Below are positions 40,078-56,610 of a stretch of DNA of 64,000 bases, piece after piece. The stretch comes from Arthrobacter nitrophenolicus (GTDB taxonomy: Bacteria; Actinomycetota; Actinomycetes; Actinomycetales; Micrococcaceae): the NCBI RefSeq assembly GCF_000332815.1, contig NZ_AOFD01000014.1, positions 1 through 64,000 of the forward strand, in the 5' to 3' direction. The position numbers and the translations under genes are program-made. The stretch's first letter is position 1, and every line of letters starts with the position of its first letter. The notes below the pieces were generated by a model. That model searched no databases, had not been told where the DNA came from, and was given only the letters and a program-made list of their open reading frames with translations.

Positions 40078-40123
40078 GCTGAAATTTGTTCAGCATATTA
40101 GCCATCAGCCAGTATAGTGAACG
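40078..40123. promoter_or_regulatory. Putative IclR-linked control region upstream of the 2-hydroxyacid dehydrogenase
   Basis: Contains the dyad gctgaa-N5-ttcagc (40078-40094) and the 10-mer gttcagcata (40088-40097), which recurs unchanged before the MHS transporter at 42937-42946. A tgaac half-site (40118-40122) follows. Related half-sites form the dyad before iclR at 42014-42033. Confidence 0.45.
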
Positions 40124-40124
40124 A

Positions 40125-41177
40125 ATGACTTCCTCTCTTACAGTCGCGATCGCTGTACCCCTCGAAGCCGAGCTGGTGGAGCAGATCCGCGCCGTCGACC
40201 CTTCCGTTACTGTCCGCTACGAGCCGGACCTCCTCCCACCGGAGCGGTTCCCCGCCGACCACTCCGGCGACCCCGCGTTCAAGCGAACCCCCAACCAGGA
40301 AGAACGCTACTGGGCCATGCTCAACAGCGCGCAGGTGCTGTACGGCTTCCCCAACGAAAGTCCTGCCGGTCTTGCCCGCATCGCCCGCGAAAATCCCCAC
40401 CTGCAGTGGATCCACGCGATGGCAGCAGGCGCGGGCGGGGCCGTCAAGGCGTCAGGCCTGGACCAGGAGACCTTGCAGAAGTTCAGGATCACCACATCGG
40501 CAGGCGTCCATGCCCTGCCGCTCGCCGAATTCGCAGCGCTGGGGATCCTCAACGGCTTCAAGCGGAGCGCGGAACTGGCCCGGGACCAGGCCGCCAAGAT
40601 TTGGCCGGACCTCCGGATTCCCACCCGCCTCGTCAACGGCTCCACCCTGGTGGTCACGGGACTGGGCGAGATCGGACTGGAGACGGCACGGATTGCCAGG
40701 GCGCTGGGAATGAAGGTCAGCGGGACCAAACGCTCAGTGGAACCCATCGACGGCATCGACCATGTGGTGGACAACGCCGGCCTGCCGGGCCTCCTGGCCA
40801 CGGCCGATGCGGTGGTCAATACGCTGCCCGGCACGGCATTCACCGAGAAGCTCTTCAACCGGGAAGTCTTCGCCGCCATGAAGCCCGGGACGGTCTTCGT
40901 CAACGTGGGCCGCGGCACCGTCGTTGACGAGGAGGCACTGCTGGAAGCCCTGGACAACGGCCAGGTCAGTTACGCCTGCCTGGACGTTTTCGCCATCGAA
41001 CCCCTCCCCCAGGACAGCCCCCTGTGGGAGCACCCCAAGGTGATGGTTTCCCCGCATACCTCCGCCCTCAGCGCCGCGGAGAACCGCCTCATTACCGAAC
41101 GCTTCTGCAGCAACCTGCGGACCTTCCTCGACGGCGGCGACCTCCCCCACCTCGTGGACACGGTCCACTTCTACTAA
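40125..41177 (+). CDS. D-2-hydroxyacid dehydrogenase (NAD(P)-dependent)
   Basis: 350 residues. NAD fold LVVTGLGEIGLETARIARAL (about 180-199). Catalytic residues: Arg in VNVGRGTVVDEEALLEALDN, Glu in LDVFAIEPLPQDSPLW, His in VMVSPHTSALSAAE. Family members reduce 2-oxo acids such as hydroxypyruvate or oxidise 2-hydroxy acids. ATG 40125 is used instead of an upstream in-frame ATG at 40086 that lies inside the operator region. First of a run with the FAH-family gene (31-base gap) and iclR. Confidence 0.88.
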   Translation: MTSSLTVAIAVPLEAELVEQIRAVDPSVTVRYEPDLLPPERFPADHSGDPAFKRTPNQEERYWAMLNSAQVLYGFPNESPAGLARIARENPHLQWIHAMAAGAGGAVKASGLDQETLQKFRITTSAGVHALPLAEFAALGILNGFKRSAELARDQAAKIWPDLRIPTRLVNGSTLVVTGLGEIGLETARIARALGMKVSGTKRSVEPIDGIDHVVDNAGLPGLLATADAVVNTLPGTAFTEKLFNREVFAAMKPGTVFVNVGRGTVVDEEALLEALDNGQVSYACLDVFAIEPLPQDSPLWEHPKVMVSPHTSALSAAENRLITERFCSNLRTFLDGGDLPHLVDTVHFY

Positions 41178-41208
41178 ACCCGCCGGCCGAAGCACGATCA
41201 GGAGATCC

Positions 41209-41946
41209 ATGCGCATCGCACGCATCAAGACAGCAGAAGGCGCCCGGCATGCAGTGGAGCGGGACGGGACATGGCACCACATTGTTGACCCGTTCGCGGA
41301 GCCCCTCAGCTACACGGGGCACACCACCCCGCACGCCGACGCCGTATTCCTCGCCCCGGTCCGGCCCGCGGTGGTGCTTGGAATCGGGCACAACCGGACA
41401 CTGAACGACCATCCGCTGCCCATCCAGGCCTGGCATAAGTCCGTGCACACCCTCGCGGATCCCAACGATCCGGTCGTCGCGGCCCGGGACCGCGGCACGG
41501 TCAATGTGGAAGGCGAACTCGCGATGGTCATCGGGAAACAGGCGAAGGACCTGACGCCCGGCAACGCGCTGGAGCATGTCCTCGGCTATACCTGCGTCAA
41601 TGACGTGACCAACGCGGACCAGGGCCTGGTGGATGAACGGAATTTCCAGGGCAAGGCCGGCGTGAACTACACGCCCCTTGGCCCGTGGATAGAAACAGAC
41701 ATCCCGGATCCGGACAGCGTGGGCATCGATGTGATTGTCAACGGGACGGCACGGGCCAACTCCGGGACGCACAACCTGCCCTCCTCAGTGGTGGAGTGCC
41801 TTGTGTACGTCACGTCCTGGCTGACCCTGGAACCCGGCGACGTGCTCATGACAGGTGCTCCCGGGACGGCAGTGGCCGTTCAGCCGGGCGACCACGTGGA
41901 GATTATGGTGGAGCGGATCGGGATCCTGTCCAACAGGATCTCCTGA
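41209..41946 (+). CDS. Fumarylacetoacetate hydrolase (FAH) family protein
   Basis: 245 residues, one FAH domain. Signature blocks: PAVVLGIGHNRTLNDH, NVEGELAMVIGKQAKDLTPG (metal Glu residues), GYTCVNDVTNADQGLVDERN and LEPGDVLMTGAPGTAVAVQP. Such single-domain members act as acylpyruvases, oxaloacetate decarboxylases or sugar-acid dehydratases. Next to a D-2-hydroxyacid dehydrogenase and IclR it probably processes a 2-oxo or 2,4-dioxo acid; the substrate is unknown. Confidence 0.85.
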   Translation: MRIARIKTAEGARHAVERDGTWHHIVDPFAEPLSYTGHTTPHADAVFLAPVRPAVVLGIGHNRTLNDHPLPIQAWHKSVHTLADPNDPVVAARDRGTVNVEGELAMVIGKQAKDLTPGNALEHVLGYTCVNDVTNADQGLVDERNFQGKAGVNYTPLGPWIETDIPDPDSVGIDVIVNGTARANSGTHNLPSSVVECLVYVTSWLTLEPGDVLMTGAPGTAVAVQPGDHVEIMVERIGILSNRIS

Positions 41947-42013
41947 CCCTGCCTGCCGCCTTCGGGTTAATGCACGGCTTCGGCGCGATGAGAAGCGCCC
42001 TCTATGATGGATG

Positions 42014-42033
42014 GTGTTCAGTCACATGAACAC
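42014..42033. promoter_or_regulatory. Dyad upstream of iclR, probable autoregulatory operator
   Basis: Perfect inverted repeat gtgttca-N6-tgaacac, 34 bases before the iclR start codon and made of the same gttca/tgaac half-sites seen before the hydroxyacid dehydrogenase and the MHS transporter. Confidence 0.55.
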
Positions 42034-42067
42034 CGCTCGTCCTGCCGCGGCAACCCGAAGGAGAATC

Positions 42068-42865
42068 ATGGCCGATTCCCGCAACCCAGGTTCATCAGAC
42101 AACCAGGGCACCGCTTCCCCAGCCCCCGCCGTGACCCGGGCGGCTGCCGTCCTGGATGCGCTGGCCTCCTCCGCCACCGGCCGCCTCACGCTCAGCGACC
42201 TTTCGCGTGAAGTAGGCATTCCCAAGTCGTCGACGTCCAACCTGCTGCTGGCGCTGGAGGAAGCCAGGCTCATCAGCCGCCAGGGCAGCGAGTTCACCCT
42301 GGGCCGCAAGCTGGTTGAGCTTGGCGCGGCCTACCTTGGCCGCCTGGATGAGGTGCAGGAGTTCTACCGCTACTGCGAGCAGGCCCCCGTCCTCTCCGGC
42401 GAAACCGTTCGCATCGCCATGCTTGACGGTTTGAACGTCATCTACCTCGCCCGCTACGAGGGGCACCCCGCGGTGCGCCTGACGTCGAATATCGGCGACA
42501 AAATGCCCGTCTCGCTCTGCGCGGTGGGCAAGGCACTGATCGCGCGGCTGCACGACCATGACATCGAGGAGCTCTTCCCCGACGACGCCGAGCTGCCCGT
42601 GCTGACGCCTAAGTCGCTGCGCACGGGTGCGGAATTCAAGGCCCAGCTGCGGACCATCCGCGAACAGGGCTACGCCTTCGAGGACGAGGAGTCCACCACG
42701 GGCGTGGTCTGCCTTGCCGTTGCCGTCCCCACCCGGGGAGCCCACGGCCCCAGCCTTGGCCTGTCCGTGACGGCCCTCAAGGCCACCTACACCCCGGAGC
42801 AGGGCGCCCAGATGGTCAAGGAACTCCAGGAACTGGCCCACTCGCTGGGCAATCCCATGGGCTGA
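42068..42865 (+). CDS. IclR family transcriptional regulator
   Basis: 265 residues from ATG 42068, which has a clear AAGGAG upstream; a longer in-frame start at 42011 would run through the operator. Winged helix at about 20-85 (LTLSDLSREVGIPKSSTSNL) and the IclR effector domain (about 100-255, with VRLTSNIGDKMPVSLCAVGK and DEESTTGVVCLAVAVPTRG). Likely controls the flanking D-2-hydroxyacid dehydrogenase, FAH-family gene and transporter. Effector unknown. Confidence 0.9.
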   Translation: MADSRNPGSSDNQGTASPAPAVTRAAAVLDALASSATGRLTLSDLSREVGIPKSSTSNLLLALEEARLISRQGSEFTLGRKLVELGAAYLGRLDEVQEFYRYCEQAPVLSGETVRIAMLDGLNVIYLARYEGHPAVRLTSNIGDKMPVSLCAVGKALIARLHDHDIEELFPDDAELPVLTPKSLRTGAEFKAQLRTIREQGYAFEDEESTTGVVCLAVAVPTRGAHGPSLGLSVTALKATYTPEQGAQMVKELQELAHSLGNPMG

Positions 42866-42916
42866 TCCCGCCCGCCGCGGGGATTTTCCCGTCACAAAGT
42901 CCACACCCTTGCCGTT

Positions 42917-42950
42917 TGTTCAACTTGCTGTATTGTGTTCAGCATAGTGA
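42917..42950 (+). promoter_or_regulatory. Putative IclR sites before the MHS transporter
   Basis: tgttca half-sites at 42917-42922 and 42936-42941, 19 bases apart; the second is part of gttcagcata, identical to that at 40088-40097. They lie about 75-110 bases before the GTG start of the transporter. Confidence 0.45.
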
Positions 42951-43024
42951 TCGACGCAACAGGGTGTCGTTGCTATCCCACCACCAGGCCAACGTGGGCC
43001 TGGAGTGCGTTTAAGGGAGTTACT

Positions 43025-44374: not shown

Positions 44375-44386
44375 CAGTCCCTGAAA

Positions 44387-44424
44387 CCCCTGGGGGCGGC
44401 CTCTGCGGGGGCCGCCCCCAGGGG
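44387..44424 (+). terminator. GC-rich hairpin terminator after the MHS transporter
   Basis: Perfect 15-base arms (44387-44401 and 44410-44424) with an 8-base loop directly after the stop codon. No long T run follows, which is common in high-GC actinobacteria. Confidence 0.7.
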
Positions 44425-44477
44425 TCGTCAGCAGCCCAAGCACTCCCCACATCCCACAGGTCACCAAAAGGTTGAAC

Positions 44478-45455
44478 ATGAAGCACGCCAGCACCTCCCC
44501 CGCTCCCCCTGCTCCTTCCGATCCTCCGCAGCGCGCAGGCTTCGTCGGGCTGGGGCTGATGGGCGCCCCGATGGCCGCGAACCTGCTCACAGCGGGGTGG
44601 GGCGTTACCGGATGGAACCGCTCGCCGTCGGCAGTTGAGGACCTCGTCCGCCTGGGTGGGTCCGCCGCCACAACAGTGGAAGACCTTCGAAACGAACCCG
44701 TCATCATCTTCATGCTCCCGGATCTTCCCCATATCGAAGAGGCTGCGGGCGGGCTCCTCGACGCGTGGCGGGCCTCACCGCCCGCACCGGGAACGCTTGT
44801 GGTGGTGATGAGCAGCGTTTCGCCCGTGGGCGTCCAGGCCTTCGGCCACGCCGTGCGCGAAGCAAGCGCCGGGAACGCCGCAGTGCTTGATGCCCCCGTC
44901 AGCGGCGGCACGCAGGGCGCGGAGCAGGGGACGCTGGCCATCATGGCCGGCGGTTCCGAGGAGGACTTTGCGCGGGCACTGCCCGCGCTGCAGGCCATGG
45001 GCACAACAGTGCGCCGGCTCGGCGGGCTGGGCGCCGGGTCCCTGGCGAAGGCATGCAACCAGCTGATCGTGGGCACCACGACGGCGGCCCTCGCCGAAGC
45101 GGCCGGGCTTGCGGAACGCTCCGGACTCGACGTCGAAGCACTCTTCGACGTCTTGTCCGGCGGGCTCGCAGCCAGCCGGGTGCTGGAGGTGGTGGGCCCG
45201 CGGCTGGCAGCGGAGGATTACACGCCAACCGGACCGGCCAAGTTCATGCACAAGGACCTGTCCTTCGTGCTGGAAAGTGCCCGCAGCGTTGGTGCCGCGG
45301 TACCGATGGCATCTGCCGGCGTCGAACTCTATGCCCACCTCATCAGGCAGGGCCTGGGAGACTTCGACCTGGCCGTAGTGCGGCAGGCCATTGCCAACCT
45401 CGGCACCGCTTCCCCGGGGAACGCTCCGGCGACTATCAAGGAGACTTTGTCATGA
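44478..45455 (+). CDS. NAD(P)-dependent beta-hydroxyacid dehydrogenase (3-hydroxyisobutyrate / tartronate-semialdehyde reductase family)
   Basis: 325 residues. NAD fold FVGLGLMGAPMAANLLTAGW at about 20-39, substrate loop DAPVSGGTQGAEQGTLAIMA (about 138-157), catalytic Lys in GSLAKACNQLIVGTTTAALA (about 189-208), and the C-terminal FMHKDLSFVLESA. ATG 44478 preferred over TTG 44472 (AAAGG upstream). Its stop overlaps the idnO-like ATG (ATGA). Likely handles a hydroxy acid from the sugar-acid pathway; substrate unproven. Confidence 0.85.
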   Translation: MKHASTSPAPPAPSDPPQRAGFVGLGLMGAPMAANLLTAGWGVTGWNRSPSAVEDLVRLGGSAATTVEDLRNEPVIIFMLPDLPHIEEAAGGLLDAWRASPPAPGTLVVVMSSVSPVGVQAFGHAVREASAGNAAVLDAPVSGGTQGAEQGTLAIMAGGSEEDFARALPALQAMGTTVRRLGGLGAGSLAKACNQLIVGTTTAALAEAAGLAERSGLDVEALFDVLSGGLAASRVLEVVGPRLAAEDYTPTGPAKFMHKDLSFVLESARSVGAAVPMASAGVELYAHLIRQGLGDFDLAVVRQAIANLGTASPGNAPATIKETLS

Positions 45456-46222
45456 CCGCCCTTTTCGACCTGACCGGACGTACAGCCCTGGTCACGGGAT
45501 CAAGCCGTGGAATCGGCAATGCCCTTGCCCGGGCCCTGGCGGACGCCGGCGCCACGGTGGTGCTGAACGGCGTCAACCCGGAACGGCTCAAGGCCGCCGA
45601 AGCCGCAATGGCCGCCGATTTCGCGCCGGGCCGGATCCACAGCTGCGCCTTCGACGTCACCAATGACACTGAAGTTGCTGACGCTATGGCGTGGGTGGAA
45701 GAAAATGTGGGTCCGCTGGAGATCCTGGTCAACAACGCCGGCATCCAGCACCGCGTGGCCATGCTTGACCTGGACGTCAAGGACTGGGAGCGGGTCATCA
45801 GCACCGACCTCACCAGCGCGTTCCTGGTGGGCAGGGCGGCGGCCCGCTTCATGATCCCCCGGGGCCGCGGCAAGATCATCAATATTTGTTCGGTCCAGAC
45901 GGACCTGGCCCGGCCCACCATCGCACCGTACATCGCCGCCAAGGGCGGGTTGCGGAACCTCACCCGCGCCATGACGGCGGAATGGGCGGCCGCCGGTTTG
46001 CAGATCAACGCGCTGGCACCCGGCTACATCCACACCGAGATGACCCAGAACCTGGTGGATGACGAGCAGTTCAACTCCTGGATCCTCGGGCGGACCCCTG
46101 CGCACCGCTGGGGCACGCCGGAGGACCTGGCCGGCCCGGCAGTCTGGCTGGCTTCCAGCGGTTCGGACTTCGTGAACGGCCAAACCATCTTCATCGACGG
46201 CGGAATGACGGTGGTGGTCTGA
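45452..46222 (+). CDS. idnO: Gluconate 5-dehydrogenase (SDR family)
   Basis: 256 residues. SDR motifs: LVTGSSRGIGNALA (about 13-26), LVNNAGIQHR (about 92-101), catalytic Ser in INICSVQTDL and Tyr-Lys in APYIAAKGGLRNLTR (about 155-165). Closely follows E. coli IdnO in the blocks NNAGIQ, PGYIHTEMTQNLVDDE, RTPAHRWGTPEDL and the C-terminal DFVNGQTIFIDGGMTVVV. Interconverts 5-ketogluconate and gluconate. Overlaps both neighbours by 4 and 1 bases. Confidence 0.9.
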   Translation: MTALFDLTGRTALVTGSSRGIGNALARALADAGATVVLNGVNPERLKAAEAAMAADFAPGRIHSCAFDVTNDTEVADAMAWVEENVGPLEILVNNAGIQHRVAMLDLDVKDWERVISTDLTSAFLVGRAAARFMIPRGRGKIINICSVQTDLARPTIAPYIAAKGGLRNLTRAMTAEWAAAGLQINALAPGYIHTEMTQNLVDDEQFNSWILGRTPAHRWGTPEDLAGPAVWLASSGSDFVNGQTIFIDGGMTVVV

Positions 46223-47292
46223 TGCGTACCGTGGCCGAACTTCCGGCGGCGGGTCCCGCCGTCGTCGCCCATGCTGCAGGCGACCTGCGCATTGAAAGCA
46301 TCCCGCTGCCGGCGGCCCGTCCCGACCAGGCAGTGGTGGAGATCGCCTACGGCGGCATCTGCGGCTCCGATCTGCACTACTGGCTGCACGGCGCGGCCGG
46401 GGAATCGGTCCTGAAGGCCCCGATGGTGCTGGGGCACGAGATCGTGGGGACGGTCATCCGTGCGGCAGCTGACGGATCCGGACCGGCGGAGGGCGCACCG
46501 GTCGCCGTGCACCCGGCCACGCCCGGGCCGGGAGACGGTCCTGCCTACGCCAGGTATCCGGACGACCGGCCCAACCTGTCCCCCGGCTGCACCTATCTTG
46601 GGAGTGCCGCGCGGTTCCCGCATACGGACGGGGCCTTCAGCAGGTACGCCACCTTGCCGTCGCGGATGCTGCGGGTCCTGCCGGCGGGACTGGACCTGAA
46701 GACGGCGGCGCTGGTCGAGCCGGCCAGCGTGGCCTGGCATGCCGTGGCCCGCGCCGGTGACGTCAGGGGCAAGACTGCCCTGGTGGTGGGCTGCGGCCCG
46801 ATCGGCACACTGACCGTTGCCGTCCTCAAGCGCGCGGGCGCGGCCCGGATCGTGGCGACGGACCTGCACCGGAAACCCCTGGAAATCGCCCGGGCAGTGG
46901 GTGCGGACGAGGTGCTGGAAGCAAGCGACGCTGAAGCACTGGCTGCGGTTGAGGCCGACGTCGTCATCGAGTCCTCCGGCTCCCACCACGGACTGGCGAC
47001 GGCCATCAAGGCAGCGGTCCGCGGCGGAAAGGTGGTGATGGTCGGCCTGCTGCCGTCCGGACCGCAGCCTGTCCTGATTTCACTGGCCATCACGCGGGAA
47101 CTGGAACTGCTGGGCTCGTTCAGGTTCAATGACGAGATCGACCAGGTCGTCACTGCGCTGGCCGACGGGTCCCTGTTCGTGGATCCGGTGGTCACCCACG
47201 TCTTCCCGCTGGAACGCGGCCTCGAAGCTTTCGAAACGGCCAGGAACTCGGCCGAGTCCGGGAAGGTCCTGCTCGACTTTGCCGGCGCGTAG
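46222..47292 (+). CDS. idnD: L-idonate 5-dehydrogenase-like zinc-family alcohol dehydrogenase
   Basis: 356 residues, MDR family. Catalytic-zinc residues Cys in YGGICGSDLHYWLHGAAGES and His-Glu in LGHEIVGTVI. NAD fold ALVVGCGPIGTLTVAVLKRA (about 181-200). GSAARFPHTDGAFSRYATLP and ELELLGSFRFNDEID match IdnD. The structural-zinc loop, which has four cysteines in E. coli IdnD, is replaced by a Gly/Pro-rich segment with only one Cys (about 92-120), so the structural zinc is probably absent. Would oxidise L-idonate to 5-ketogluconate for IdnO. Its start overlaps the idnO stop. Confidence 0.85.
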   Translation: MRTVAELPAAGPAVVAHAAGDLRIESIPLPAARPDQAVVEIAYGGICGSDLHYWLHGAAGESVLKAPMVLGHEIVGTVIRAAADGSGPAEGAPVAVHPATPGPGDGPAYARYPDDRPNLSPGCTYLGSAARFPHTDGAFSRYATLPSRMLRVLPAGLDLKTAALVEPASVAWHAVARAGDVRGKTALVVGCGPIGTLTVAVLKRAGAARIVATDLHRKPLEIARAVGADEVLEASDAEALAAVEADVVIESSGSHHGLATAIKAAVRGGKVVMVGLLPSGPQPVLISLAITRELELLGSFRFNDEIDQVVTALADGSLFVDPVVTHVFPLERGLEAFETARNSAESGKVLLDFAGA

Positions 47293-47320
47293 GGGTATCC
47301 CCTCGCTTGCGTGGAGGTTC

Positions 47321-48232
47321 TCAGGTCTCAGTGAAAGCGCCGTTGCGCTGAGCAAGGGTCCGGAAGATTCCTGTGTGGTCAAGGGCGCCGTCGCCCCGCT
47401 CGACCATATCCTCGAAAAGATCCTGGATTACCGAGCTCAGCGGTAGCTCCAGGTGTGCTGTTCTGGCCGCTCCGAGCACGAAGTTGAGGTCCTTCAGCTG
47501 GTTTCGGGCGCTGCCGCCACCTGTGAAGTCGCCGTCAATCCATCTGTGCCCTTTTTGGCGCAGTACTTCGGAGTCGGCCAGCCCACCCCGAAGCAGTTCA
47601 AGCATCACCGATGGATCCAGTCCCCCGCCGCGCGCGAGAAGCATAGCTTCGGAAACTGCCGTGACCGTGCCGGCGACCACGACCTGGTTGCAGGCCTTGG
47701 CCAGTGCGCCCGAACCCCCGGAACCCATGTGCCGGATGGTGCTGCCCACCAACTCGAACACCGGGACGACCGAGCTGAACGTGTCCGCGTCCCCGCCCAC
47801 CATGATGCTCAGGGTGCCGTTTTCGGCGCCCACGGTGCCGCCACTGACGGGGGCGTCAAGGACTCGGACCCCATGTTCGCGAAGCATCCGTTCGCCAAAT
47901 GCCGCCACTGCCCCCGGCGAGACTGTCCCGTGCACGACGAGTATGGGCCGGGAAATGCCCCTTGCTGTCCATCCGGCTATCAGGCCCTCTTCTCCCGGAA
48001 GCAGCGATTCGACGTGGTTTAGGTCCGGCAGCACGGTGAGAACTATGTCGGCAGCCGCCTCACGAGGTGAGGCCGCAACGCGGACGCCCAGGCCAACCAA
48101 GGCCTCCGCCTTTGAAGCTGTCCGGTTCCAGACTGTCAACTCGCCGTAGCCCTTCAGCAGCCGCCGCGCCATGGGTTCGCCCATCGGCCCTAGTCCCATC
48201 AGGGCAAGTGCTGGGCGGTCAGGTTCAGGCAT
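47321..48232 (-). CDS. NAD(P)-dependent beta-hydroxyacid dehydrogenase (second paralogue)
   Basis: 303 residues with the same layout as the gene at 44478: NAD fold LALMGLGPMGEPMARRLLKG, DAPVSGGTVGAENGTLSIMV, catalytic Lys in GALAKACNQVVVAGTVTAVS, and NQLKDLNFVLGAARTA. The two are related but clearly diverged, so not a recent duplication. Downstream of dctM by 43 bases, in the same direction, and probably the last gene of the TRAP operon; it converges with idnD. Confidence 0.87.
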   Translation of the reverse strand: MPEPDRPALALMGLGPMGEPMARRLLKGYGELTVWNRTASKAEALVGLGVRVAASPREAAADIVLTVLPDLNHVESLLPGEEGLIAGWTARGISRPILVVHGTVSPGAVAAFGERMLREHGVRVLDAPVSGGTVGAENGTLSIMVGGDADTFSSVVPVFELVGSTIRHMGSGGSGALAKACNQVVVAGTVTAVSEAMLLARGGGLDPSVMLELLRGGLADSEVLRQKGHRWIDGDFTGGGSARNQLKDLNFVLGAARTAHLELPLSSVIQDLFEDMVERGDGALDHTGIFRTLAQRNGAFTET

Positions 48233-48275
48233 TGGGATCCTTTAGTGAATGGGGTTAGCGAACTGAGGGAAGGCG

Positions 48276-49553
48276 TTACTGGTTGGCCAGGAGATTGGAT
48301 GGCCACAGGATAAGTTGCGGGAAGATGGCCAGCATGACGACGGCAACCACCATGACCACGTAGAGCGGCACCGCGGCCTTCACAATCTTTTCCATCGGCA
48401 GCCCGCTGACATAGGACGCCGCGAACAGGCAGACGCCGACAGGCGGCACGACCAGTCCGACGGCAAGGGCGGCAACGAGGAAGACGACGAAGTGGATGGG
48501 ATCCACACCGGAAGACACAGCCGCGGGCATGAGCACCGGTGTGCACAGCAGGATGGCTGCGACTTTGTCCATCACAGTTCCGATGATGATCAGGATCATG
48601 CCGATCAGCAGCATGACGATGGTGGGGTCAGTACTGACGCTCAACAGCCAGCTGCTGACCTTCGCCGGCAGCCCGTCAATGGTGAAGATGTAAGAGGCGA
48701 CGCCGGCGATCATGGCGATGAGCAGGATAGTGCCGGTGGTGAGGCCGGCGTCCACGATCATCTTGGGCATCTGGCGCCACTTCATGTCCCGGTAGACGTA
48801 GATGCCGACCAACAGGCTGTAGAAGACGGCGACGGCGGCCGCCTCCGTGGGGGTGACGAGCCCGCTGAACATGCCTACCAGGATGATCACTGGGCCGCCC
48901 ATGGCAGGGATTCCCTCGAGGACGATCCTAAGGCCCTTCTTGAAAGGCGTCCTTGAGACCTCGCCGTAACCGTGACGTGCTGACAGGAAGAAGTTCACAA
49001 GCATCAGGACGATGATCAGGACAACGGACGGGCCAAATCCTCCTGCCAGGGCGGCGCCTACCGAGACGTTCGCTGTGGAAGCGGCGATGATCATAAGGAT
49101 GCTCGGCGGTATCAGTGAGGACAGGGTGGCCGTGACCATGGTCATCGCTGCCGCGTAAGGCCTCGGGTATTTATGGTCAGTCATGGCTTTGATCTCGATC
49201 TTGCCAAGGCTGACGATGTCGGCGACTGAGGAACCGGAGATGCCGCCGAAGACCGCGCTCGATGCGATGTTCACCTGGCCAAGGCCGCCACGGAAGCGGC
49301 CGAAGATGACTTCGGCGCCACGGAAGATGCGATCCGAAATACCCCCTCCGGACATGAGGTTGCCGGCCAGGACGAACAAGGGGACAGCAACCAGCAGGAA
49401 GCTGTTCATGGAGCTCATCATGGACTGCGGCAACAGTTCGAGGGGAATATCGAAGATCAGCAGCGTGGCGATGACGCCGATGCCGAGTGAGACTGAGAGC
49501 GGAACGCCCAGCAGCAGCAGGAGGAGGAAAATCCCCAGCAGGGTCAGGCTCAT
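48276..49553 (-). CDS. dctM: TRAP transporter large permease (DctM type)
   Basis: 425 residues with about 12 helices; typical start SLTLLGIFLLLLLLGVPLSV and the conserved region IFGGISGSS-like (SSAVFGGISGSSVADIVSLG), then IPPSILMIIAASTANVSVGA. Forms the Na+-coupled channel with DctQ. Overlaps dctQ by 4 bases. TRAP systems take up organic and sugar acids. Confidence 0.95.
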   Translation of the reverse strand: MSLTLLGIFLLLLLLGVPLSVSLGIGVIATLLIFDIPLELLPQSMMSSMNSFLLVAVPLFVLAGNLMSGGGISDRIFRGAEVIFGRFRGGLGQVNIASSAVFGGISGSSVADIVSLGKIEIKAMTDHKYPRPYAAAMTMVTATLSSLIPPSILMIIAASTANVSVGAALAGGFGPSVVLIIVLMLVNFFLSARHGYGEVSRTPFKKGLRIVLEGIPAMGGPVIILVGMFSGLVTPTEAAAVAVFYSLLVGIYVYRDMKWRQMPKMIVDAGLTTGTILLIAMIAGVASYIFTIDGLPAKVSSWLLSVSTDPTIVMLLIGMILIIIGTVMDKVAAILLCTPVLMPAAVSSGVDPIHFVVFLVAALAVGLVVPPVGVCLFAASYVSGLPMEKIVKAAVPLYVVMVVAVVMLAIFPQLILWPSNLLANQ

Positions 49554-50164
49554 GATGCGATCATCTCTCCTTTGAGGATCCTCTTACGCATATACGGGGA
49601 GAAGTAGACGGTCGTGATGTGGGCGACGATGGCGAGTGCCGCGCTGATCACAAGGGGCAGGGTTACCAGGAACATCTTGAGTCCCAGGGCAGGACTGGAC
49701 TCTCCAGCGGAGTATTGCTGCAGCATCAGTTCCCACGTCTTGTAGATCAGGACACTGAAGAAGACGGTCCCGCAGACGGCGTAGAGATGCATGCTGACCT
49801 TTTTAAGCCAGGCTGGTCCCCACGCCACAACGAAGTTCACCCGCGGGTGCACGGCAGCCCGGAAGCCTGCTGCCATCCCCAGGAAGGTGGTGTCCATGAA
49901 CAGGAAACGGGTCAGTTCCTCGGTCCACGACAGCGAGGCTCCCATCTGCCGGCTGACCATTTGGGCAGCAAGGCTGAGCAGCATCGCGCAGATGCCGACG
50001 AAGAGGAGAGCATCCACGGCCTTCCAGATCAGACCATGAGGTTCCGAGACGTCGCTGACCGGAACCACCTGGATGCTATCTTCGGCCGCCTGGTGTTCGG
50101 CCCCCCGGACTGGGGTGGTCCCATCATCATGCACTGAACTTGTCTCCTGCACTGGACCCGTCAT
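49550..50164 (-). CDS. dctQ: TRAP transporter small permease (DctQ type)
   Basis: 204 residues. Four helices in the C-terminal 150 residues with the family motif SWTEELTRFLFMDTTFLGMA. The first 55 residues form an acidic hydrophilic extension (EAPHQ-rich), longer than usual. ATG 50164 taken because the dctP stop ends two bases upstream; an earlier start would lie within dctP. Confidence 0.92.
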   Translation of the reverse strand: MTGPVQETSSVHDDGTTPVRGAEHQAAEDSIQVVPVSDVSEPHGLIWKAVDALLFVGICAMLLSLAAQMVSRQMGASLSWTEELTRFLFMDTTFLGMAAGFRAAVHPRVNFVVAWGPAWLKKVSMHLYAVCGTVFFSVLIYKTWELMLQQYSAGESSPALGLKMFLVTLPLVISAALAIVAHITTVYFSPYMRKRILKGEMIAS

Positions 50165-50165
50165 C

Positions 50166-51188
50166 TTAACGTCCGAGGAATTCGAGGCTTGACTGGACGA
50201 ATTCCTTGCCAACCTTGCCCTCAAGCTCGGGGTAAACCTTCTGTGCCGCCGCCTGGAACTCTTCCCGTGCTTCGGGCGTCAGCTCGTTGATCTTCACGCC
50301 TTCGCCCTTCAGCTTGTCGAGGGTCTTGGTGGCTTCGTCGTTGTCGTACTTTGTCTTGAAATCAGCGGTCTCGTCTGCAGCTTCCTGCAGGACCTTCCGG
50401 GTGTCCTCATCGAAGGAGTCCCACTTTTTCTTGCTGAACCCGAGGACGAGCCCGTCGGAGATGTGGCCCGTCAAGGAGAGGTAGTCCTGGACTTCGAAGA
50501 ACTTGTTGTTGACTGGTACTTCCAGAGGGTTTTCCTGGCCGTCGATAGTGCCGAGCTGCAGGGCGGTGTAAACCTCTTTGAAGTCCATCGGCGTCGGGTT
50601 GGCGCCCAGTGAGCCAAAGAACTTAACCCAGAGGTCATTCTGCGGTACGCGGAGCTTCAGGTCCTTGAAGTCCTCGGGCTGGGTGATGGGGCGCATCGAG
50701 TTGGTGGTGTGCCGGGGGGTACGGGTCAGCATGGACACGCCCTTGATGCCCAGCTTGTCCAGTGAGCCCAGCAGTTCCTTGCCCGGCTCGCCTTCAAAGT
50801 ACTTGGTGACCTCCTCCGAGTCCTTGAAGAGATAGGGAAGGCTGACGGCGTTCATCTTCGGCTCGAAGGACGCGTACACCGAGGTCGACATGATGGTGGA
50901 GTCCAGCGTGCCGTTTCCAAGCAGGTTGACGGCGGCGTTCTGGTCTCCGCCGAAGAGGGTGCCGTCGGGGAACGTCTCGACCTTGACCTTGCCGTCGCTC
51001 AGCTCGGCAACCTTGTCGGCGAAGTGCTTTGCGCTCACGCCCATGGAAGAGGTTGCTGGGTCGCCGATGCCGAGGCGGATCGTGGTGCTGGCCGCGCCGG
51101 CACCCGGGGCCCCGCCGCAACCGGTGAGGGCAGTAGTAACGGTGAGTGCAACGGCCGCAGCTGCGGCGGCCAGGATGCGCTTTGGCAT
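50166..51188 (-). CDS. dctP: TRAP transporter solute-binding lipoprotein (DctP type)
   Basis: 340 residues. Lipoprotein signal peptide with lipobox LTGC (about 21-24), then a DctP domain: LKLRVPQNDLWVKFFGSLGANPTPM with the substrate-clamping Arg, and VYTALQLGTIDGQENPLEVP. Captures the substrate outside the membrane. First gene of the TRAP operon; the LacI-type operator A lies about 210 bases upstream. Substrate probably a sugar acid (inferred from idonate/gluconate genes nearby). Confidence 0.93.
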   Translation of the reverse strand: MPKRILAAAAAAVALTVTTALTGCGGAPGAGAASTTIRLGIGDPATSSMGVSAKHFADKVAELSDGKVKVETFPDGTLFGGDQNAAVNLLGNGTLDSTIMSTSVYASFEPKMNAVSLPYLFKDSEEVTKYFEGEPGKELLGSLDKLGIKGVSMLTRTPRHTTNSMRPITQPEDFKDLKLRVPQNDLWVKFFGSLGANPTPMDFKEVYTALQLGTIDGQENPLEVPVNNKFFEVQDYLSLTGHISDGLVLGFSKKKWDSFDEDTRKVLQEAADETADFKTKYDNDEATKTLDKLKGEGVKINELTPEAREEFQAAAQKVYPELEGKVGKEFVQSSLEFLGR

Positions 51189-51396
51189 CTGATTCTCCTT
51201 TGAATACTTGCTGGTTCCTGACCTAGGGGGACAGGGTACTGATGCTTTGACGGCGGTAATTGCGGCGTACTGGGCTGTGCAGATATGGCCGAGAACTGCT
51301 CTTGCTGCTCTCTCGTCCCGCGTGCCCAGCGCCTTCCAGATAGAAGTCAGGCGTGCAGGTGCACGCTTGCAGACCAGGATGGAAGATCGTGGTACC

Positions 51397-51415
51397 AGTG
51401 GAACCGGTACACTTT
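51397..51415. promoter_or_regulatory. LacI-type operator A (TRAP operon)
   Basis: agtggaaccggtacacttt, centred on the palindromic core accggt. The exact reverse complement of all 19 bases occurs at 52581-52599. It lies between the end of lacI and the start of dctP, in its 281-base promoter region. Confidence 0.8.
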
Positions 51416-51469
51416 TTTACCATAGGCCCGGCGCTGCTGTAAACCATTCAGGAGCGGATGCCCGTTTGG

Positions 51470-52498
51470 TTACTTCGATAACTGCAGCCGGGCAACGCTG
51501 GACCGCTCAACCAGTTCGGCGGCTACGCGGATGACGTTGCGTTTTTCCGACGTCTTGCCCTGCGTGTTGGACAACGCGAGCTGCACGGAATGACGGGCGA
51601 GCAGATCTATGGGCTGTTTGACGATCGTCAGGGCCGGGGTCATGAGTTCGGTCCAGGGTGAATCTTCGAAGACGATGACGGACAGCCTCCCGGGAATGTC
51701 GATCCCGGCATGGGAAAGGCGCCGCAGAACTTCGGTTACCTGGGCAGTGTTTGCCACCACCAAAGCGGTGGGCGGCTCTTCGATATTGAGCAGCGCCGAC
51801 GCGGCGTCTCCCCCGGCAGGGCCGCGGAACGCGGCATGCCGTATCAGGAGCTCATCCGGCTCCAAGCCGGCCGTCTCCAGGGCTTGCCGATAGCCGGCAA
51901 TCCGGTCCCTTCCGGTAGTGGAGGAAGCCGGCCCGGAGATGATTCCGATGCGCCGGTGGCCGTGGGCTGCAAGAAGGGCCGTTGCAGCCCGGGCGGATTC
52001 GAAGTTATCGATGCTGACAACGTCAACCTCGGGAAGCGAAGGAATTGACCGGTCGACAAAGACCACCTCAGTTCCCAGATCCTGGAGCTGCTTCCAGGTG
52101 GCAAGGTTGTTGCCGGTCGGGGTCGCAATAATCCCACTGACCCTGCGTTCGATTAATGTCGCCAGACGTTCTGACTCCAGCTGGTCATCCTCCTGCGTGG
52201 TCATCAGCAGCACCTGGATTCCGCGGGAGTGCGCCTCCTGCACCACCCGGTCGGCGAGCCGGGCAAAAAAGGGGTTGGAGACATCGGCGAGCAGCAGCCC
52301 CAGCGTTGTGGGCGGGCCGTACTTGAGCTCCCTGGCTGCCGTGCGGGGGTGATAACCAAGGTTCTTCATCACCTCGTTTACTCTCCCGCGCGTGGCCGCG
52401 GCGACCGGGCCCGAACCCGGATTCAGCACCCGGGAGACGACCGCAACGGACACCCCGGCCGCCTGGGCAACATCGCGGATGGTCGGTTGTTTCTGCAC
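51470..52498 (-). CDS. LacI family transcriptional regulator
   Basis: 342 residues. N-terminal LacI helix-turn-helix (TIRDVAQAAGVSVAVVSRVL, about 6-25) with hinge around NLGYHPRTAARELK, and a periplasmic-binding-like sugar domain (about 60-335; LLLADVSNPFFARLADRVVQ). Flanked on both sides by an identical operator, so it very likely controls the TRAP operon, itself, and the divergent SAF-type oxidoreductase operon. Similar architecture to GntR/IdnR regulators of gluconate and idonate genes. Confidence 0.92.
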   Translation of the reverse strand: MQKQPTIRDVAQAAGVSVAVVSRVLNPGSGPVAAATRGRVNEVMKNLGYHPRTAARELKYGPPTTLGLLLADVSNPFFARLADRVVQEAHSRGIQVLLMTTQEDDQLESERLATLIERRVSGIIATPTGNNLATWKQLQDLGTEVVFVDRSIPSLPEVDVVSIDNFESARAATALLAAHGHRRIGIISGPASSTTGRDRIAGYRQALETAGLEPDELLIRHAAFRGPAGGDAASALLNIEEPPTALVVANTAQVTEVLRRLSHAGIDIPGRLSVIVFEDSPWTELMTPALTIVKQPIDLLARHSVQLALSNTQGKTSEKRNVIRVAAELVERSSVARLQLSK

Positions 52499-52580
52499 GC
52501 CTACTCCTTGCCTGGCACTTCCTGGACACCTGGAACCTTTTCAGCCTAGGGCTTGACGGTGAGCCCGCGCCTGTGACATA

Positions 52581-52599
52581 AAAGTGTACCGGTTCCACT
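52581..52599. promoter_or_regulatory. LacI-type operator B (lacI / oxidoreductase operon)
   Basis: aaagtgtaccggttccact, identical as a reverse complement to operator A. Located between the divergent lacI (start 52498) and oxidoreductase (start 52754) genes. Confidence 0.8.
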
Positions 52600-52753
52600 T
52601 ATTTTACCTTAGTTCGGTCCCGCTTAGTTCTGCAGCCCATTACCCAATGGCGGCGAGGCGCAAGGTGAAAAGCAGAGCCCCCACAGCTGCGGTTGATCAC
52701 AGACCAGCCCGCATCCCTTCCGGAACAGCGCCGTATCCCTTGAAAGGCAACCC

Positions 52754-54109
52754 ATGAACCTGCACCACCTCCTGACCCAGCGCGAAGCCGACGGAGAGCC
52801 CATCCGGGTCGGCCTGATCGGCGCCGGACGCTACGGGACGATGTACCTGGCCCAGGCAAACAACATTCCGGGTATCCACGTCGTCGCCATCGCCGACATC
52901 AACGTCAAGCGCGCCGAAGGTGCTTTCGAACTCGTTGGATGGCCCAAAGACCAGATCGCCCCGGACATCGCAACCGCCCTCAGGGACCGCTCAACCGCGA
53001 TTGTGGCCAACGCCGACGAGCTTTTCGACGTCGACATCGACATCATCGTCGAAGCCACCGGTAACCCCATCGTTGGCGTCAAGCACGCGCTGCGCGCCAT
53101 CGACACGAAAAAGCACATCATCATGGTCACCGTCGAAGCCGACGCCCTGGCAGGGCCCGCACTTGCCAAGCGGGCAGAAGCAGCCGGCGTTGTCTACTCA
53201 ATGGCATACGGCGACCAGCCGGCGCTCATCATGGAACTCGTCGACTGGGCCCGCACCAGCGGATTCGACGTCGTCTGCGCCGGCAAGGGCGCCAAATTCC
53301 TCGAGCACTACCACGAGATGAACCCCGACAACGTCTGGGAAAACTGGGAATTCTCCAAGGAACTCACCGACTCCGGGCAGCTGAACCCCAACATGCACAC
53401 CTCCTTCCGCGACGGCACCAAGGCCGCCATCGAAATGGCCGCCGTCGCCAACGCGGCAGGACTGGTGCCCTCTGACACCGGCCTGACGTTCACACCAGGA
53501 GACGTTGAGGAAATTGCCACAATCTGCCGCCCCGCCGACGTCGGAGGAGCCCTCGCGCACGAAGGGACCGTCGACGTCATGTCCAGCGTCAACCGCGACG
53601 GCACCTGGATCCCCCACAACACCCAGGAAGGCGTCTTCGTCGTCGTGAAGGCAACGAACGCCTACGTCTCCGGCTGCTTCAACGAATACCCCTGGCACCC
53701 GGACCCCACCGGCCAGTACGCCGCCCTGTACCGCCCCTACCACTATGTCGGCCTGGAACTGAACGTATCAATAGCCAACGCCGTCCTCCGCGGGATCCCC
53801 ACGGGTTCGCCCACCGGCTTCTTCGGCGACGTTGTCGCCACCGCCAAGAAAGACCTCAAAGCCGGTGAATTCCTTGACGGCGAAGGCGGATACACCGTCT
53901 GGGGCCAACTCGTTTCCGCGAAGCACTCCGTCACCACCGGCGCCCTGCCGGTTGCGCTGGCCCACCACGTGGAACTTCGCAATGACGTACCCAAGGGCGG
54001 CATCGTCCGCTGGGAAGACGTCATCATGGACGACTCGCTCGCCCAGGCCCTCGAACTGCGTCGCGAAACCGAGGCCCTTGCCCTCGAGGAAAACCTCGCC
54101 CGCAGCTAA
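52754..54109 (+). CDS. Homoserine-dehydrogenase-like oxidoreductase with SAF domain
   Basis: 451 residues. Rossmann domain with VGLIGAGRYGTMYLAQANNI (about 19-38) and IDIIVEATGNPIVGVKHALR; a middle domain with GTKAAIEMAAVANAAGLVPS; a C-terminal SAF-type domain with GGYTVWGQLVSAKHSVTTGA. This is the COG4091-like group, which is only loosely related to homoserine dehydrogenase and whose members are mostly uncharacterised in catabolic loci. Governed by operator B, with an ABM protein, gluconokinase and aldehyde dehydrogenase downstream. Probably oxidises a sugar or sugar acid brought in by the TRAP system. Confidence 0.8.
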   Translation: MNLHHLLTQREADGEPIRVGLIGAGRYGTMYLAQANNIPGIHVVAIADINVKRAEGAFELVGWPKDQIAPDIATALRDRSTAIVANADELFDVDIDIIVEATGNPIVGVKHALRAIDTKKHIIMVTVEADALAGPALAKRAEAAGVVYSMAYGDQPALIMELVDWARTSGFDVVCAGKGAKFLEHYHEMNPDNVWENWEFSKELTDSGQLNPNMHTSFRDGTKAAIEMAAVANAAGLVPSDTGLTFTPGDVEEIATICRPADVGGALAHEGTVDVMSSVNRDGTWIPHNTQEGVFVVVKATNAYVSGCFNEYPWHPDPTGQYAALYRPYHYVGLELNVSIANAVLRGIPTGSPTGFFGDVVATAKKDLKAGEFLDGEGGYTVWGQLVSAKHSVTTGALPVALAHHVELRNDVPKGGIVRWEDVIMDDSLAQALELRRETEALALEENLARS

Positions 54110-54223
54110 GTCCGAAACACTCTGCAGACGTTCGGCGCGGACCCACGGACTTCAGCCGCCGGTCCGCGCCGCGTCCGCAAGCACCCTCCCGCGCCCACAC
54201 CCTCCTACTAGGAGACACCTCAT

Positions 54224-54535
54224 ATGACCATCGTCGTCACCGCTGCTTTCAGCCCGAAGGAAGGCGCCTTCGACCAGGTCGTCGCCGCCCTCTCTCCAGC
54301 AATCAGTGAAGTGCACCAGGAACCCGGCTGCCTGCTCTATGCGATACACGAAGCCCCAAACAACCAGATATTCATGATCGAAAAATGGGAATCAGCTGAG
54401 CTGCTCGACGCCCACGGCCAAGGTGAACCGGTCAAACGCCTGAACGCCTCCCTCGAAGGCCTGCTGGAAAAACCCGTCGTCGTGACCAGGCTCGTGCCAA
54501 TCCCCGCAGGAACAGCACAACAAGGAGCGCTGTAG
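54224..54535 (+). CDS. ABM-domain protein (putative quinol monooxygenase family)
   Basis: 103 residues; dimeric ferredoxin-like ABM fold, with TAAFSPKEGAFDQVVAALSP, EPGCLLYAIHEAPNNQIFMIEKWES and the closing strand. Relatives include YgiN and LsrG-type enzymes that act on small phosphosugar-like molecules, and others of unknown function. The stop overlaps the GTG of gluconokinase by one base. A hairpin (54134-54143 with 54161-54170) precedes it in the 114-base gap. Confidence 0.78.
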   Translation: MTIVVTAAFSPKEGAFDQVVAALSPAISEVHQEPGCLLYAIHEAPNNQIFMIEKWESAELLDAHGQGEPVKRLNASLEGLLEKPVVVTRLVPIPAGTAQQGAL

Positions 54536-55071
54536 TGAATAGCCCTATTGTTGTCATGGGCGTGTCGGGCGCGGGCAAGACTGAGGTAGGCACTGCCCTG
54601 GCAGCCCGGCTCGGGGCAACCTTCAAGGACGCTGACGACCTGCACCCCTTGCCGAACGTTCAAAAGATGGCAGCCGGCGTACCGCTCACCGATGAAGACA
54701 GATGGCCGTGGCTTCGCCTGGTCGGCGCAGAACTCGCGGGCGAACACGCTAACGGGATCGTGGTTGCCTGTTCGGCCCTCAAACGCGCCTACCGTGACGC
54801 TATCCGCGCAGCCGCCCCTTCCACCAGGTTCATCCTGTTAAAGGTCGAGCCTTCGGTATTGCAGCAGCGGTTGGTCCAGCGTCCAGGACACTTCATGCCT
54901 GCATCCCTTCTCACCTCACAGCTGGAGACACTTGAGGCCCTGGAAACGGCCGAAGCCGGAATGACCTTGATATCCGAAGGCGGCATTGAAGCGGTCACCG
55001 ATCAGATTCTCGCAAATCTCCGCCGAGGACATCTCGCAGTAAAGGCCGGTATCAATCAGAACGGAACATAA
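54535..55071 (+). CDS. gntK: Gluconokinase
   Basis: 178 residues. P-loop VMGVSGAGKTEVGTALA (about 7-23), FKDADDLHPLPNVQKMAAG (substrate loop), DEDRWPWLRLVGAEL and CSALKRAYRDAIRA, all hallmarks of GntK/IdnK. Phosphorylates gluconate to 6-phosphogluconate, the last step of the idonate route. GTG start overlapping the ABM gene stop. Confidence 0.93.
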   Translation: MNSPIVVMGVSGAGKTEVGTALAARLGATFKDADDLHPLPNVQKMAAGVPLTDEDRWPWLRLVGAELAGEHANGIVVACSALKRAYRDAIRAAAPSTRFILLKVEPSVLQQRLVQRPGHFMPASLLTSQLETLEALETAEAGMTLISEGGIEAVTDQILANLRRGHLAVKAGINQNGT

Positions 55072-55200
55072 GACCGTTCCTTCCACGCCAAGGGCCTTGC
55101 GCCAAAAGACAAGAGCGGAGCCGGGCCGCTACACCACACTGAGGGGTAACCCGCTACGCCGCCCGGCTGGCGTCCTTGCCTACTCGAAGTGGAGTAACCC

Positions 55201-56610
55201 TTGGAAACCTACGATGCGCTCCTCGAATCCATCACGCCCACGTCCGGACAAACCCGGACCATCCTGAACCCTGCCACGGGCGAAGCCGTGGGCGAGGCCC
55301 CCATCCATGACCTCGAATTCCTGGAGCACGCCGTCGCCACCGCCGTCGAAACCCAGCCCGCCTGGGCGGCGCTGGGCCACGAGGCAAGGTCCGCCGCGCT
55401 CCTGAAAGCCGCCGACGCCGTCGAACGCTCCGCCGAGGAACTCGCCCAGCTGCTCTCCCGCGAACAGGGCAAACCCCTCAACGGACCCAACGCCCGCTTT
55501 GAAGTGGGCGCCTGCGTGGCCTGGCTCCGCGCCACCGCCGGCCTGCCGCTGGAACCGGAAACGATCGTGGACGACGGCCAGACCCGCGCCGAACTGCACT
55601 ACAAGCCCATCGGCGTCGTCGCCGCCATCGGCCCCTGGAACTGGCCCATGATGATCGCCATCTGGCAGATCGCCCCTGCCCTGCGCATGGGCAACACCGT
55701 CGTCGTCAAACCCTCCGGCAACACCCCGCTCTCCGTCCTGGCCCTGGTCAAGGTCCTCAACGAGGAACTACCCGAAGGCATCCTCACCACAGTCTCCTGC
55801 GGCCGCGACGTCGGAGCCCGCCTCACCGACCACCCCGCGATCGGCAAAATCATGTTCACCGGCTCCACCGCCGCCGGCCGCGCCATCATCAAATCCTCCG
55901 CCGACACCGTCAAACGCCTCACCCTCGAACTCGGCGGCAACGACGCCGGCATCGTCCTGCCCGACGCCGACCCCAAAACCATCGCCGAAGACATCTTCTG
56001 GGGCGCCTTCCTCAACACCGGCCAGACCTGCGCCGCCCTCAAACGCCTCTACGTCCACGACGACATCTACGACGCCGTCTGCGACGAACTCACCACCGTC
56101 GCCAAAGCCATGCCCATGGGCAACGGCCTGGACGAAACCAACGTCCTGGGCCCACTGCAGAACAAAGCCCAATACGACGTCGTCGCCAACCTCGTCCAGG
56201 CAGCCAAAGACTCCGGCGCCCGCATCCTCCTCGGCGGCAACCCGGACCCCGACCAGCCCGGCTACTTCTACCCCACCACCCTGGTCGCCGACATCGACAA
56301 CAACAACCCGCTCGTCGCCGAAGAACAGTTCGGGCCGGCCCTGCCGATCATCCGCTACAGCACCATCGACGAAGCAGTGGAAAAAGCCAACGCCCTCGAC
56401 GTCGGCCTCGGCGCCTCCGTCTGGTCCTCCAACCCCGCCGCCGCCCGCGACGTCGCCACCCGCATCCAGGCCGGCACCGTCTGGATAAACCGGCACGGCG
56501 CCGTGGACCCCCGCATCCCGTTCGGCGGAGCCAAACAATCCGGCTACGGCCTCGAATTCGGCGTCGAAGGCCTCAAGCACCTCGGCGTCCCCCAGGTGAT
56601 CAACGGCTAG
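55201..56610 (+). CDS. NAD(P)-dependent aldehyde dehydrogenase
   Basis: 469 residues. Catalytic Glu in RLTLELGGNDAGIVLPDADP and Cys in LNTGQTCAALKRLYVHDDIY (about 280). PWNWPMMIAIWQIAPALRMG is the cofactor-binding motif. TTG start with GGAG 6 bases upstream. 129 bases after gntK, so it may be in the same transcript or have its own promoter; I see nothing distinctive in that gap. The substrate is probably an aldehyde from sugar-acid breakdown. Codon choice is strongly C-ending, more so than its neighbours. Confidence 0.9.
   Translation: METYDALLESITPTSGQTRTILNPATGEAVGEAPIHDLEFLEHAVATAVETQPAWAALGHEARSAALLKAADAVERSAEELAQLLSREQGKPLNGPNARFEVGACVAWLRATAGLPLEPETIVDDGQTRAELHYKPIGVVAAIGPWNWPMMIAIWQIAPALRMGNTVVVKPSGNTPLSVLALVKVLNEELPEGILTTVSCGRDVGARLTDHPAIGKIMFTGSTAAGRAIIKSSADTVKRLTLELGGNDAGIVLPDADPKTIAEDIFWGAFLNTGQTCAALKRLYVHDDIYDAVCDELTTVAKAMPMGNGLDETNVLGPLQNKAQYDVVANLVQAAKDSGARILLGGNPDPDQPGYFYPTTLVADIDNNNPLVAEEQFGPALPIIRYSTIDEAVEKANALDVGLGASVWSSNPAAARDVATRIQAGTVWINRHGAVDPRIPFGGAKQSGYGLEFGVEGLKHLGVPQVING

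Follow-up and report, generated by a model that had tools for sequence, protein, structure and literature searches.

The window considered here, meaning the whole stretch of 64,000 nucleotides analysed from contig NZ_AOFD01000014.1 of Arthrobacter nitrophenolicus, carries what appears to be a single sugar-acid cluster but is two units, namely U1, which includes IdnO- and IdnD-type dehydrogenase genes, and U2, a separately regulated block of 7.8 kb. U2 includes the gene for DLO, a DXR-II-like oxidoreductase that the initial annotation had described as a COG4091-like "SAF oxidoreductase", and it probably breaks down a sugar acid via this relative of a carbon-skeleton-rearranging enzyme of isoprenoid synthesis. 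The features of U2 are listed below; LacI, DctQ and DctM, as well as the IclR and MFS genes of U1, take their names from the sequence and from record-annotated homologues rather than from a family call.

47302..55072 (7.77 kb): block U2 (HIBADH-2, TRAP, LacI, DLO, ABM, GntK), which aligns as a single block to locus L111 of genome G021
47321..48232, minus strand: HIBADH-2, a beta-hydroxyacid dehydrogenase (GarR/GlxR-like); TIGR01505 at 222.1 bits, short of the cut-off of 340.75
48276-51188, minus strand: the tripartite ATP-independent periplasmic (TRAP) transport system as a whole
48276..49553, minus strand: DctM, TRAP large permease, homologous to large permeases annotated in the records of L008, L009, L151 and L154
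49550..50164, minus strand: DctQ, TRAP small permease with a putative start, homologous to small permeases annotated in records
50166..51188, minus strand: DctP, TRAP solute-binding protein; phmmer match to 7bbr, E 3.4e-56
51398..51412, minus strand: operator-like site, copy 1, upstream of dctP (exact 15-mer)
51470..52498, minus strand: LacI-family regulator
52584..52598, plus strand: operator-like site, copy 2, between lacI and DLO (exact 15-mer)
52754..54109, plus strand: DLO; Pfam PF21135 DRL_cat, 2.2e-54
54224..54535, plus strand: ABM-fold protein, a candidate ketol isomerase (LsrG-like fold); PF03992, 2.4e-13
54535..55071, plus strand: GntK-type kinase, one of three in the genome; TIGR01313 at 176.1 bits, above the cut-off of 113.75

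In related genomes, 47302-55072 is a discrete block that stands at differing places. Window segments 40088-47282 and 55071-56608 align to stretches of genome G021 that lie approximately 50 bp apart (L184), so that the genes for the IdnD-type enzyme and an aldehyde dehydrogenase are neighbours there, and window 47302-55072 aligns in one piece elsewhere in the same genome (L111; 7826 columns, 90%). Genome G025 has the same U1 gene order with approximately 0.96 kb of other sequence at the block site (L183), and its block sits on a different contig (L113) from its U1 locus; the U1 order is kept in both L183 and L184, and the genes for HIBADH-1, the short-chain dehydrogenase/reductase (SDR) and the medium-chain dehydrogenase/reductase (MDR) are found together in all eight of the relatives' IdnD loci fetched at length (L183-L190). 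The simplest history would have U2 inserted into U1, and its loss from an older joint locus is a possible alternative; a comparison of the approximately 100 bp at each block end showed no exact repeats of 8-12 bases, direct or inverted, and hence no mechanism of movement is proposed.

The two operator-like sites are the only exact copies of the 15-mer GTGTACCGGTTCCAC in the 64 kb, and they flank lacI. The same pair is found in L111-L114, and the U1 loci L183 and L184 contain no copy at up to one mismatch. At up to three mismatches, the window holds 8 matches against 1.83 expected by chance, including three 3-mismatch sites inside U1 genes, at 41154-41168 (2-hydroxyacid dehydrogenase), 43073-43087 (MFS) and 55854-55868 (aldehyde dehydrogenase); a one-mismatch site also occurs in one of the 20 control stretches introduced below (L146). 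Among relatives, a perfect 16-bp palindrome, GTGGAACCGGTTCCAC, stands upstream of DLO in 16 of the 34 upstream regions examined. This 16-mer has no match in the window at up to three mismatches, and a palindrome scan of the window's lacI-DLO gap was negative at up to two mismatches because the window site has 15 bases and that of the relatives 16. LacI may bind to these operator-like sites, in which case it would control two operons, dctP-dctQ-dctM-HIBADH-2 and DLO-ABM-gntK. A shared operator had been claimed for the region; this fits the predicted DLO-ABM-GntK and TRAP-HIBADH-2 operons but finds no support at HIBADH-1/IdnO/IdnD or the aldehyde dehydrogenase, near which no exact 15-mer occurs in the 64-kb window.

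DLO is a member of the DRL/DXR-II superfamily by its DRL_cat domain, and the solved chains nearest to it are 3upy and 3upl of Brucella DXR-II (1.5e-51). Its AlphaFold2 model (pLDDT 95.3) finds 3upl as the top fold match (TM 0.89/0.92, 29% identity), far ahead of the next entry, and Gfo/Idh/MocA dehydrogenases and homoserine dehydrogenase appear as more distant structural neighbours; the domain scan reported no SAF domain for DLO, and a genome-wide SAF search matched two other contigs only. Residues D154, D220, K223, E227 and N233 are present in all 121 DLO rows and all four DXR-II-type rows of the alignment, and K178 (corresponding to Brucella Lys191) in 116 and four of these, respectively; judging from conservation, the invariant Asp, Lys, Glu and Asn are presumably catalytic. 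At the position of Brucella Thr229, which together with Lys191 and Lys193 anchors fosmidomycin in the Brucella enzyme (PMC3847144), Thr is found in all four DXR-II-type rows, whereas the 121 DLO rows have Ser, Ala, Pro or Ile, and the window DLO, with Ala224, lacks the Thr anchor of DXR-II proper. The DLOs also carry one extra residue after the AGKG motif relative to the DXR-II-type rows; on our reading of this residue pattern, the substrate of DLO has probably changed and is probably unphosphorylated. Compared with Brucella abortus DXR-II/DRL, DLO shares the whole fold, the DRL_cat domain and the invariant residues, but differs in sequence, in the Ala at the Thr229 position, in a catabolic neighbourhood and in belonging to a genus that has DXR-I.

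In a tree of 94 of the 125 rows (14 same-genus loci of L112-L130 and 17 even-numbered loci of L056-L088 being dropped), the window DLO lies in a 21-row DLO clade (100), apart from the DXR-II-type rows, with an outgroup of four rows, two of them belonging to species in the DXR-II list. Support for the root split is weak (73), and the outgroup join and several long branches are flagged unsure. All 20 other rows of the clade have ABM or HIBADH within 7 kb, and 15 have both. DLO1 and DLO2 were described in 2013 as uncharacterised DXR-II-like oxidoreductases for which activity in making 2-C-methyl-D-erythritol 4-phosphate (MEP) was not shown, and Arthrobacter sp. FB24 is listed under DLO2 (Carretero-Paulet 2013, PMC3847144); the portions of that article consulted give no function, partner genes or module for either family. 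Likewise, no function for DLO was found in the openly licensed full-text literature, among the matches listed.

Within the genus, 61 genomes drawn evenly from a larger group were compared. DLO (E <= 1e-40) and ABM (E <= 1e-20) are each found in 21 of the 61, in identical sets of genomes, and an IdnD-type MDR homologue occurs in 52. Twenty same-genus DLO stretches of 19-20 kb each were set against 20 control stretches from the same genus: LacI (at least 55% identity) and HIBADH-2 (at least 50%) are present in all 20 DLO stretches and in none of the controls. ABM is present in 18 DLO stretches, the copies of G052 and G020 lying approximately 10 and 13 kb away, DctP in 16 (15 at 50% or more and one at 25%), and GntK in 12, plus that of G052 in the overlapping stretch L191. 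IdnO together with IdnD (at least 65%) lies near the block in a single DLO stretch, and HIBADH-1 and the aldehyde dehydrogenase (each at 60% or more) in none of the 20; a weaker SDR match occurs in 4 of the stretches in all, and a weaker aldehyde dehydrogenase match in 2. DLO, ABM, DctP and GntK are absent from all 20 control stretches, in which weaker matches amount to LacI 3, HIBADH 1, SDR 2, MDR 1 and aldehyde dehydrogenase 2. A search for related loci retained the best 80 of at least 589, and L011-L020, loci from named Arthrobacter, may derive from strains that are also among the G-numbered genomes.

Beyond the genus, DLO-ABM-HIBADH-DctP-DctQ-DctM occurs on plasmids of Pararhizobium, Agrobacterium, Sinorhizobium and Limimaricola, with a LysR regulator replacing LacI and with a gluconokinase in two of these four plasmid modules (L008, L151). 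Mesorhizobium has DLO-ABM-HIBADH, and two unannotated Sinorhizobium records (L163, L164) hold the full module set by BLAST. In the tree, the DLOs of these modules group apart in a clade of their own (8 rows, 100), which a node at 97 unites with the second DLO copies of Microbacteriaceae and with further DLOs from actinobacteria; the module is thus carried by two DLO lineages. The gene partnership recurs across two phyla, and such a tight association provides the uncharacterised DLO branch with partners and a likely substrate class. In three Microbacteriaceae loci (L017, L022, L025), a single cluster contains ABM, TRAP and HIBADH genes together with two DLO genes that belong to different lineages. 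A sugar ATP-binding cassette (ABC) importer, a ribokinase-type kinase and a xylose-isomerase-like TIM-barrel gene are repeatedly found next to the module, both in alphaproteobacteria and in the same-genus genomes G052 and G020 (L151, L153, L154, L116/L191 and L192). On the small plasmid pMTH1 of Paracoccus methylutens (L007), DLO and a GntR regulator occur twice with the same protein accessions, one copy adjoining HIBADH and aldehyde dehydrogenase genes.

With respect to the partner proteins, the fold search for ABM returned two Rv0793 chains (1y0h) first and Escherichia coli LsrG, a phospho-autoinducer-2 isomerase, at rank 3 (3qmq; TM 0.80/0.84). LsrG shares the ABM fold and is 18% identical over the fold match; the window ABM matched none of the NCBIfam models, the LsrG equivalog included, and a rhizobial module ABM scored 38.8 bits on that equivalog model, below its cut-off of 135. 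HIBADH-2 comes closest to the models of tartronate semialdehyde reductase, again below cut-off. DctP is nearest to 7bbr, which we take to be a structure of CxaP, a sugar-acid binder from Advenella. The ligands given for CxaP are xylonic, fuconic, galactonic and gluconic acids (PMC12076931). In Phaeobacter, HIBADH and DLO flank a DHAD gene with sugar-acid-dehydratase relatives, followed by an annotated SMP-30/gluconolactonase, and this arrangement is in keeping with an exit through an aldonate, as is the presence of GntK in 12 of the 20 same-genus DLO stretches and in L008 and L151.

The reading preferred here, at a rough probability of 0.45, is that U2 is a LacI-controlled unit combining TRAP uptake, a DLO rearrangement and steps by ABM, HIBADH-2 and GntK; it is largely a construction, in that we infer the LacI regulation, the substrate class, the rearrangement and the roles of ABM, HIBADH and GntK. 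The TRAP system would take up an unphosphorylated sugar acid, and DLO would oxidise a C-branched sugar acid and rearrange its skeleton by an alpha-ketol shift, as DXR run backwards, to yield a 2-keto acid. ABM would then relocate or epimerise the carbonyl, as LsrG does, HIBADH-2 would reduce the keto acid to an aldonate, and GntK would phosphorylate the aldonate for entry into the pentose phosphate pathway. If the rearrangement is true, a catabolic route has taken over carbon-skeleton chemistry of isoprenoid synthesis and runs it in the opposite direction.

On chemical grounds alone, one candidate for the substrate is 2-carboxy-D-arabinitol (hamamelonate). DXR converts a straight ketose into a branched polyol; on our own chemical reasoning, if the methyl group is replaced by a carboxylate and DXR is reversed, 2-carboxy-D-arabinitol would give a 2-keto-hexonate with the C4/C5 configuration of gluconate. 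This compound is the dephosphorylated form of 2-carboxy-D-arabinitol 1-phosphate (CA1P), the night-inhibitor of plant Rubisco. CA1P is described as the phosphate of D-hamamelonic acid, and carboxyarabinitol as arising from hamamelose in leaves (PMC9833046). That soil and root bacteria consume hamamelonate, DLO forming the 2-keto-hexonate and HIBADH and GntK carrying it to 6-phosphogluconate, is an unlikely proposition as it stands; if true, DLO is a new class of sugar-acid oxidoisomerase. A literature search on bacterial catabolism of isosaccharinate, hamamelonate, 2-carboxyarabinitol and methylerythritol yielded nothing relevant among the matches listed.

Several observations weigh against the rearrangement route. 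The same-genus counts come from related genomes and are not independent events, and GntK is missing from 8 of the 20 same-genus DLO stretches (G052 having one in L191). Transporters vary among modules (TRAP of two types, RbsB-type ABC and SBP_bac_1-type ABC), so not every module need import a TRAP ligand. Counts of ABM and HIBADH rest on six-frame BLAST, since a simple gene caller recovered no more than 70 DLO genes in this GC-rich DNA; among the 124 DLO/DRL genes that BLAST gave in a slightly larger set (4 of them DXR-II-type), 37 have both ABM and HIBADH within 7 kb, 14 HIBADH only and 7 ABM only, and 66 have neither. Fifty-six of those 66 genes, 49-53% identical to the window DLO, are in the 64 loci L026-L089, which are mostly proteobacterial by record title. 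A survey of conserved neighbours in the 41 of these 64 loci where the gene caller found DLO gave a largest family of 5 of 41, and none stood out; DLO may thus have a broader or different role. Moreover, the DLO rearrangement would be an extrapolation from the DXR-II enzyme, ABM and HIBADH-2 reach the cut-off of no functional model, and four DLO sequences failed to complement a DXR mutant (PMC3847144), which means only that those DLOs made no MEP.

It is quite possible, if not the preferred account, that DLO simply oxidises a linear sugar acid as an NAD(P) dehydrogenase, similar to homoserine dehydrogenase, in an ordinary redox route to GntK with no rearrangement. The evidence for DLO consists of fold and conserved residues only, its more distant structural neighbours are themselves of the dehydrogenase kind, and a dehydrogenase, HIBADH and a kinase could together take an aldonate through a keto acid to its epimer. 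On the other side, the sole solved family members found are the Brucella reductoisomerase, whose invariant residues are kept in DLO, and DXR-II-type relatives lie within 9 kb of 2-oxoacid- or acetoin-dehydrogenase-like E1 genes in four of the seven loci checked, as expected for products of the 1-deoxy-D-xylulose 5-phosphate (DXP) type. These four are in Agrobacterium tumefaciens CFBP7129 (a plasmid, L160, which also holds a sugar ABC importer and a PfkB kinase), Sinorhizobium fredii NGR234 (L159), Paracoccus versutus (L197) and Priestia (L162); L158, L196 and L198 have no such neighbour. The E1-linked loci possibly convert 2-C-methyl-D-erythritol to MEP, thence to DXP by DRL reversed, and finally to acetyl-CoA and glyceraldehyde 3-phosphate. 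In L158 (a Listeria innocua plasmid) and L198 (Ligilactobacillus salivarius), DRL lies beside a glucitol/sorbitol-type phosphotransferase system with GutM and a sugar-binding regulator, which suggests a catabolic role.

A route of the D-apionate type, in which an ApnO-like oxidoisomerase acts on another branched acid such as apionate or isosaccharinate, is improbable. D-apionate oxidoisomerase oxidises a branched sugar acid with migration of a hydroxymethyl group, and it is in this kind of reaction rather than in a comparison of proteins that the likeness lies; such a route would also suit the alphaproteobacterial module, which has a sugar ABC importer, a ribokinase-type kinase and a xylose-isomerase-like gene next to it. 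However, the partner enzymes differ, a RuBisCO-like protein is not annotated in the plasmid stretches read, which cover part of their hosts' annotated genes, and GntK is better suited to a hexonate.

The account given in the initial annotation, a single extended idonate/gluconate operon with DLO and ABM as a side branch, is likewise improbable. The genes assigned to U1 are as follows.

40128..41177, plus strand: D-2-hydroxyacid dehydrogenase (PF02826)
41209..41946, plus strand: FAH-family hydrolase (PF01557)
42011..42865, plus strand: IclR-type regulator, with a 97-98% identical gene in L183 and L184
42935..44374, plus strand: major facilitator superfamily (MFS) transporter, with a 95-98% identical gene in L183 and L184
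44478..45455, plus strand: HIBADH-1, a HIBADH-type beta-hydroxyacid dehydrogenase
45434..46222, plus strand: IdnO-type SDR; gluconate 5-dehydrogenase model at 292.9 bits, below the cut-off of 408
46222..47292, plus strand: IdnD-type MDR; L-idonate 5-dehydrogenase model at 231.6 bits, below the cut-off of 469
55201..56610, plus strand: aldehyde dehydrogenase, adjoining the IdnD gene in G021

All the genes that this account named are present (two HIBADH, IdnO, IdnD, TRAP, LacI, the COG4091-like oxidoreductase, ABM, GntK and the aldehyde dehydrogenase), the two units are physically adjacent in the window and could share GntK, and in G004 the genes for LacI, HIBADH-2, an IdnO-type and an IdnD-type enzyme (71-72% identical) follow in that order on one strand (L115), which shows that the two units can be joined. 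Nevertheless, the single module is not supported, given that the IdnO-IdnD pair stands near the block in only one of the 20 same-genus stretches, the exact operator-like sites are at the block only, and G021 has IdnD and the aldehyde dehydrogenase adjacent with the block elsewhere. As to the L-idonate (idn) pathway itself, genes of the IdnD, IdnO and GntK types are indeed nearby; GntK passes its model, but IdnD and IdnO fall below their equivalog cut-offs and belong to U1. To our knowledge, that pathway includes none of DLO, ABM, TRAP and HIBADH-2, and the suggestion of a further substrate or branch is supported insofar as DLO and ABM make up a conserved module found in the absence of IdnD and IdnO, which makes it likely that the substrate or branch lies beyond the known idonate route. 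In L185, L186 and L187, HIBADH-1/IdnO/IdnD adjoin a GntK gene (47-51% identical to the window GntK), and U1-type genes may thus form a complete idonate-type route there.

Finally, that DLO serves as a backup DXR for isoprenoid synthesis is very hard to credit in spite of its DXR-II family fold and the two-frame dxr of the window's own assembly, since dxr is matched in all 61 genus genomes and is of full length in the other 20 DLO genomes, the window DLO has Ala at the Thr229 position, and its gene is linked to TRAP and GntK. The dxr of the window genome (G000:C22:17646-18799) reads in two overlapping frames, perhaps through an assembly error.

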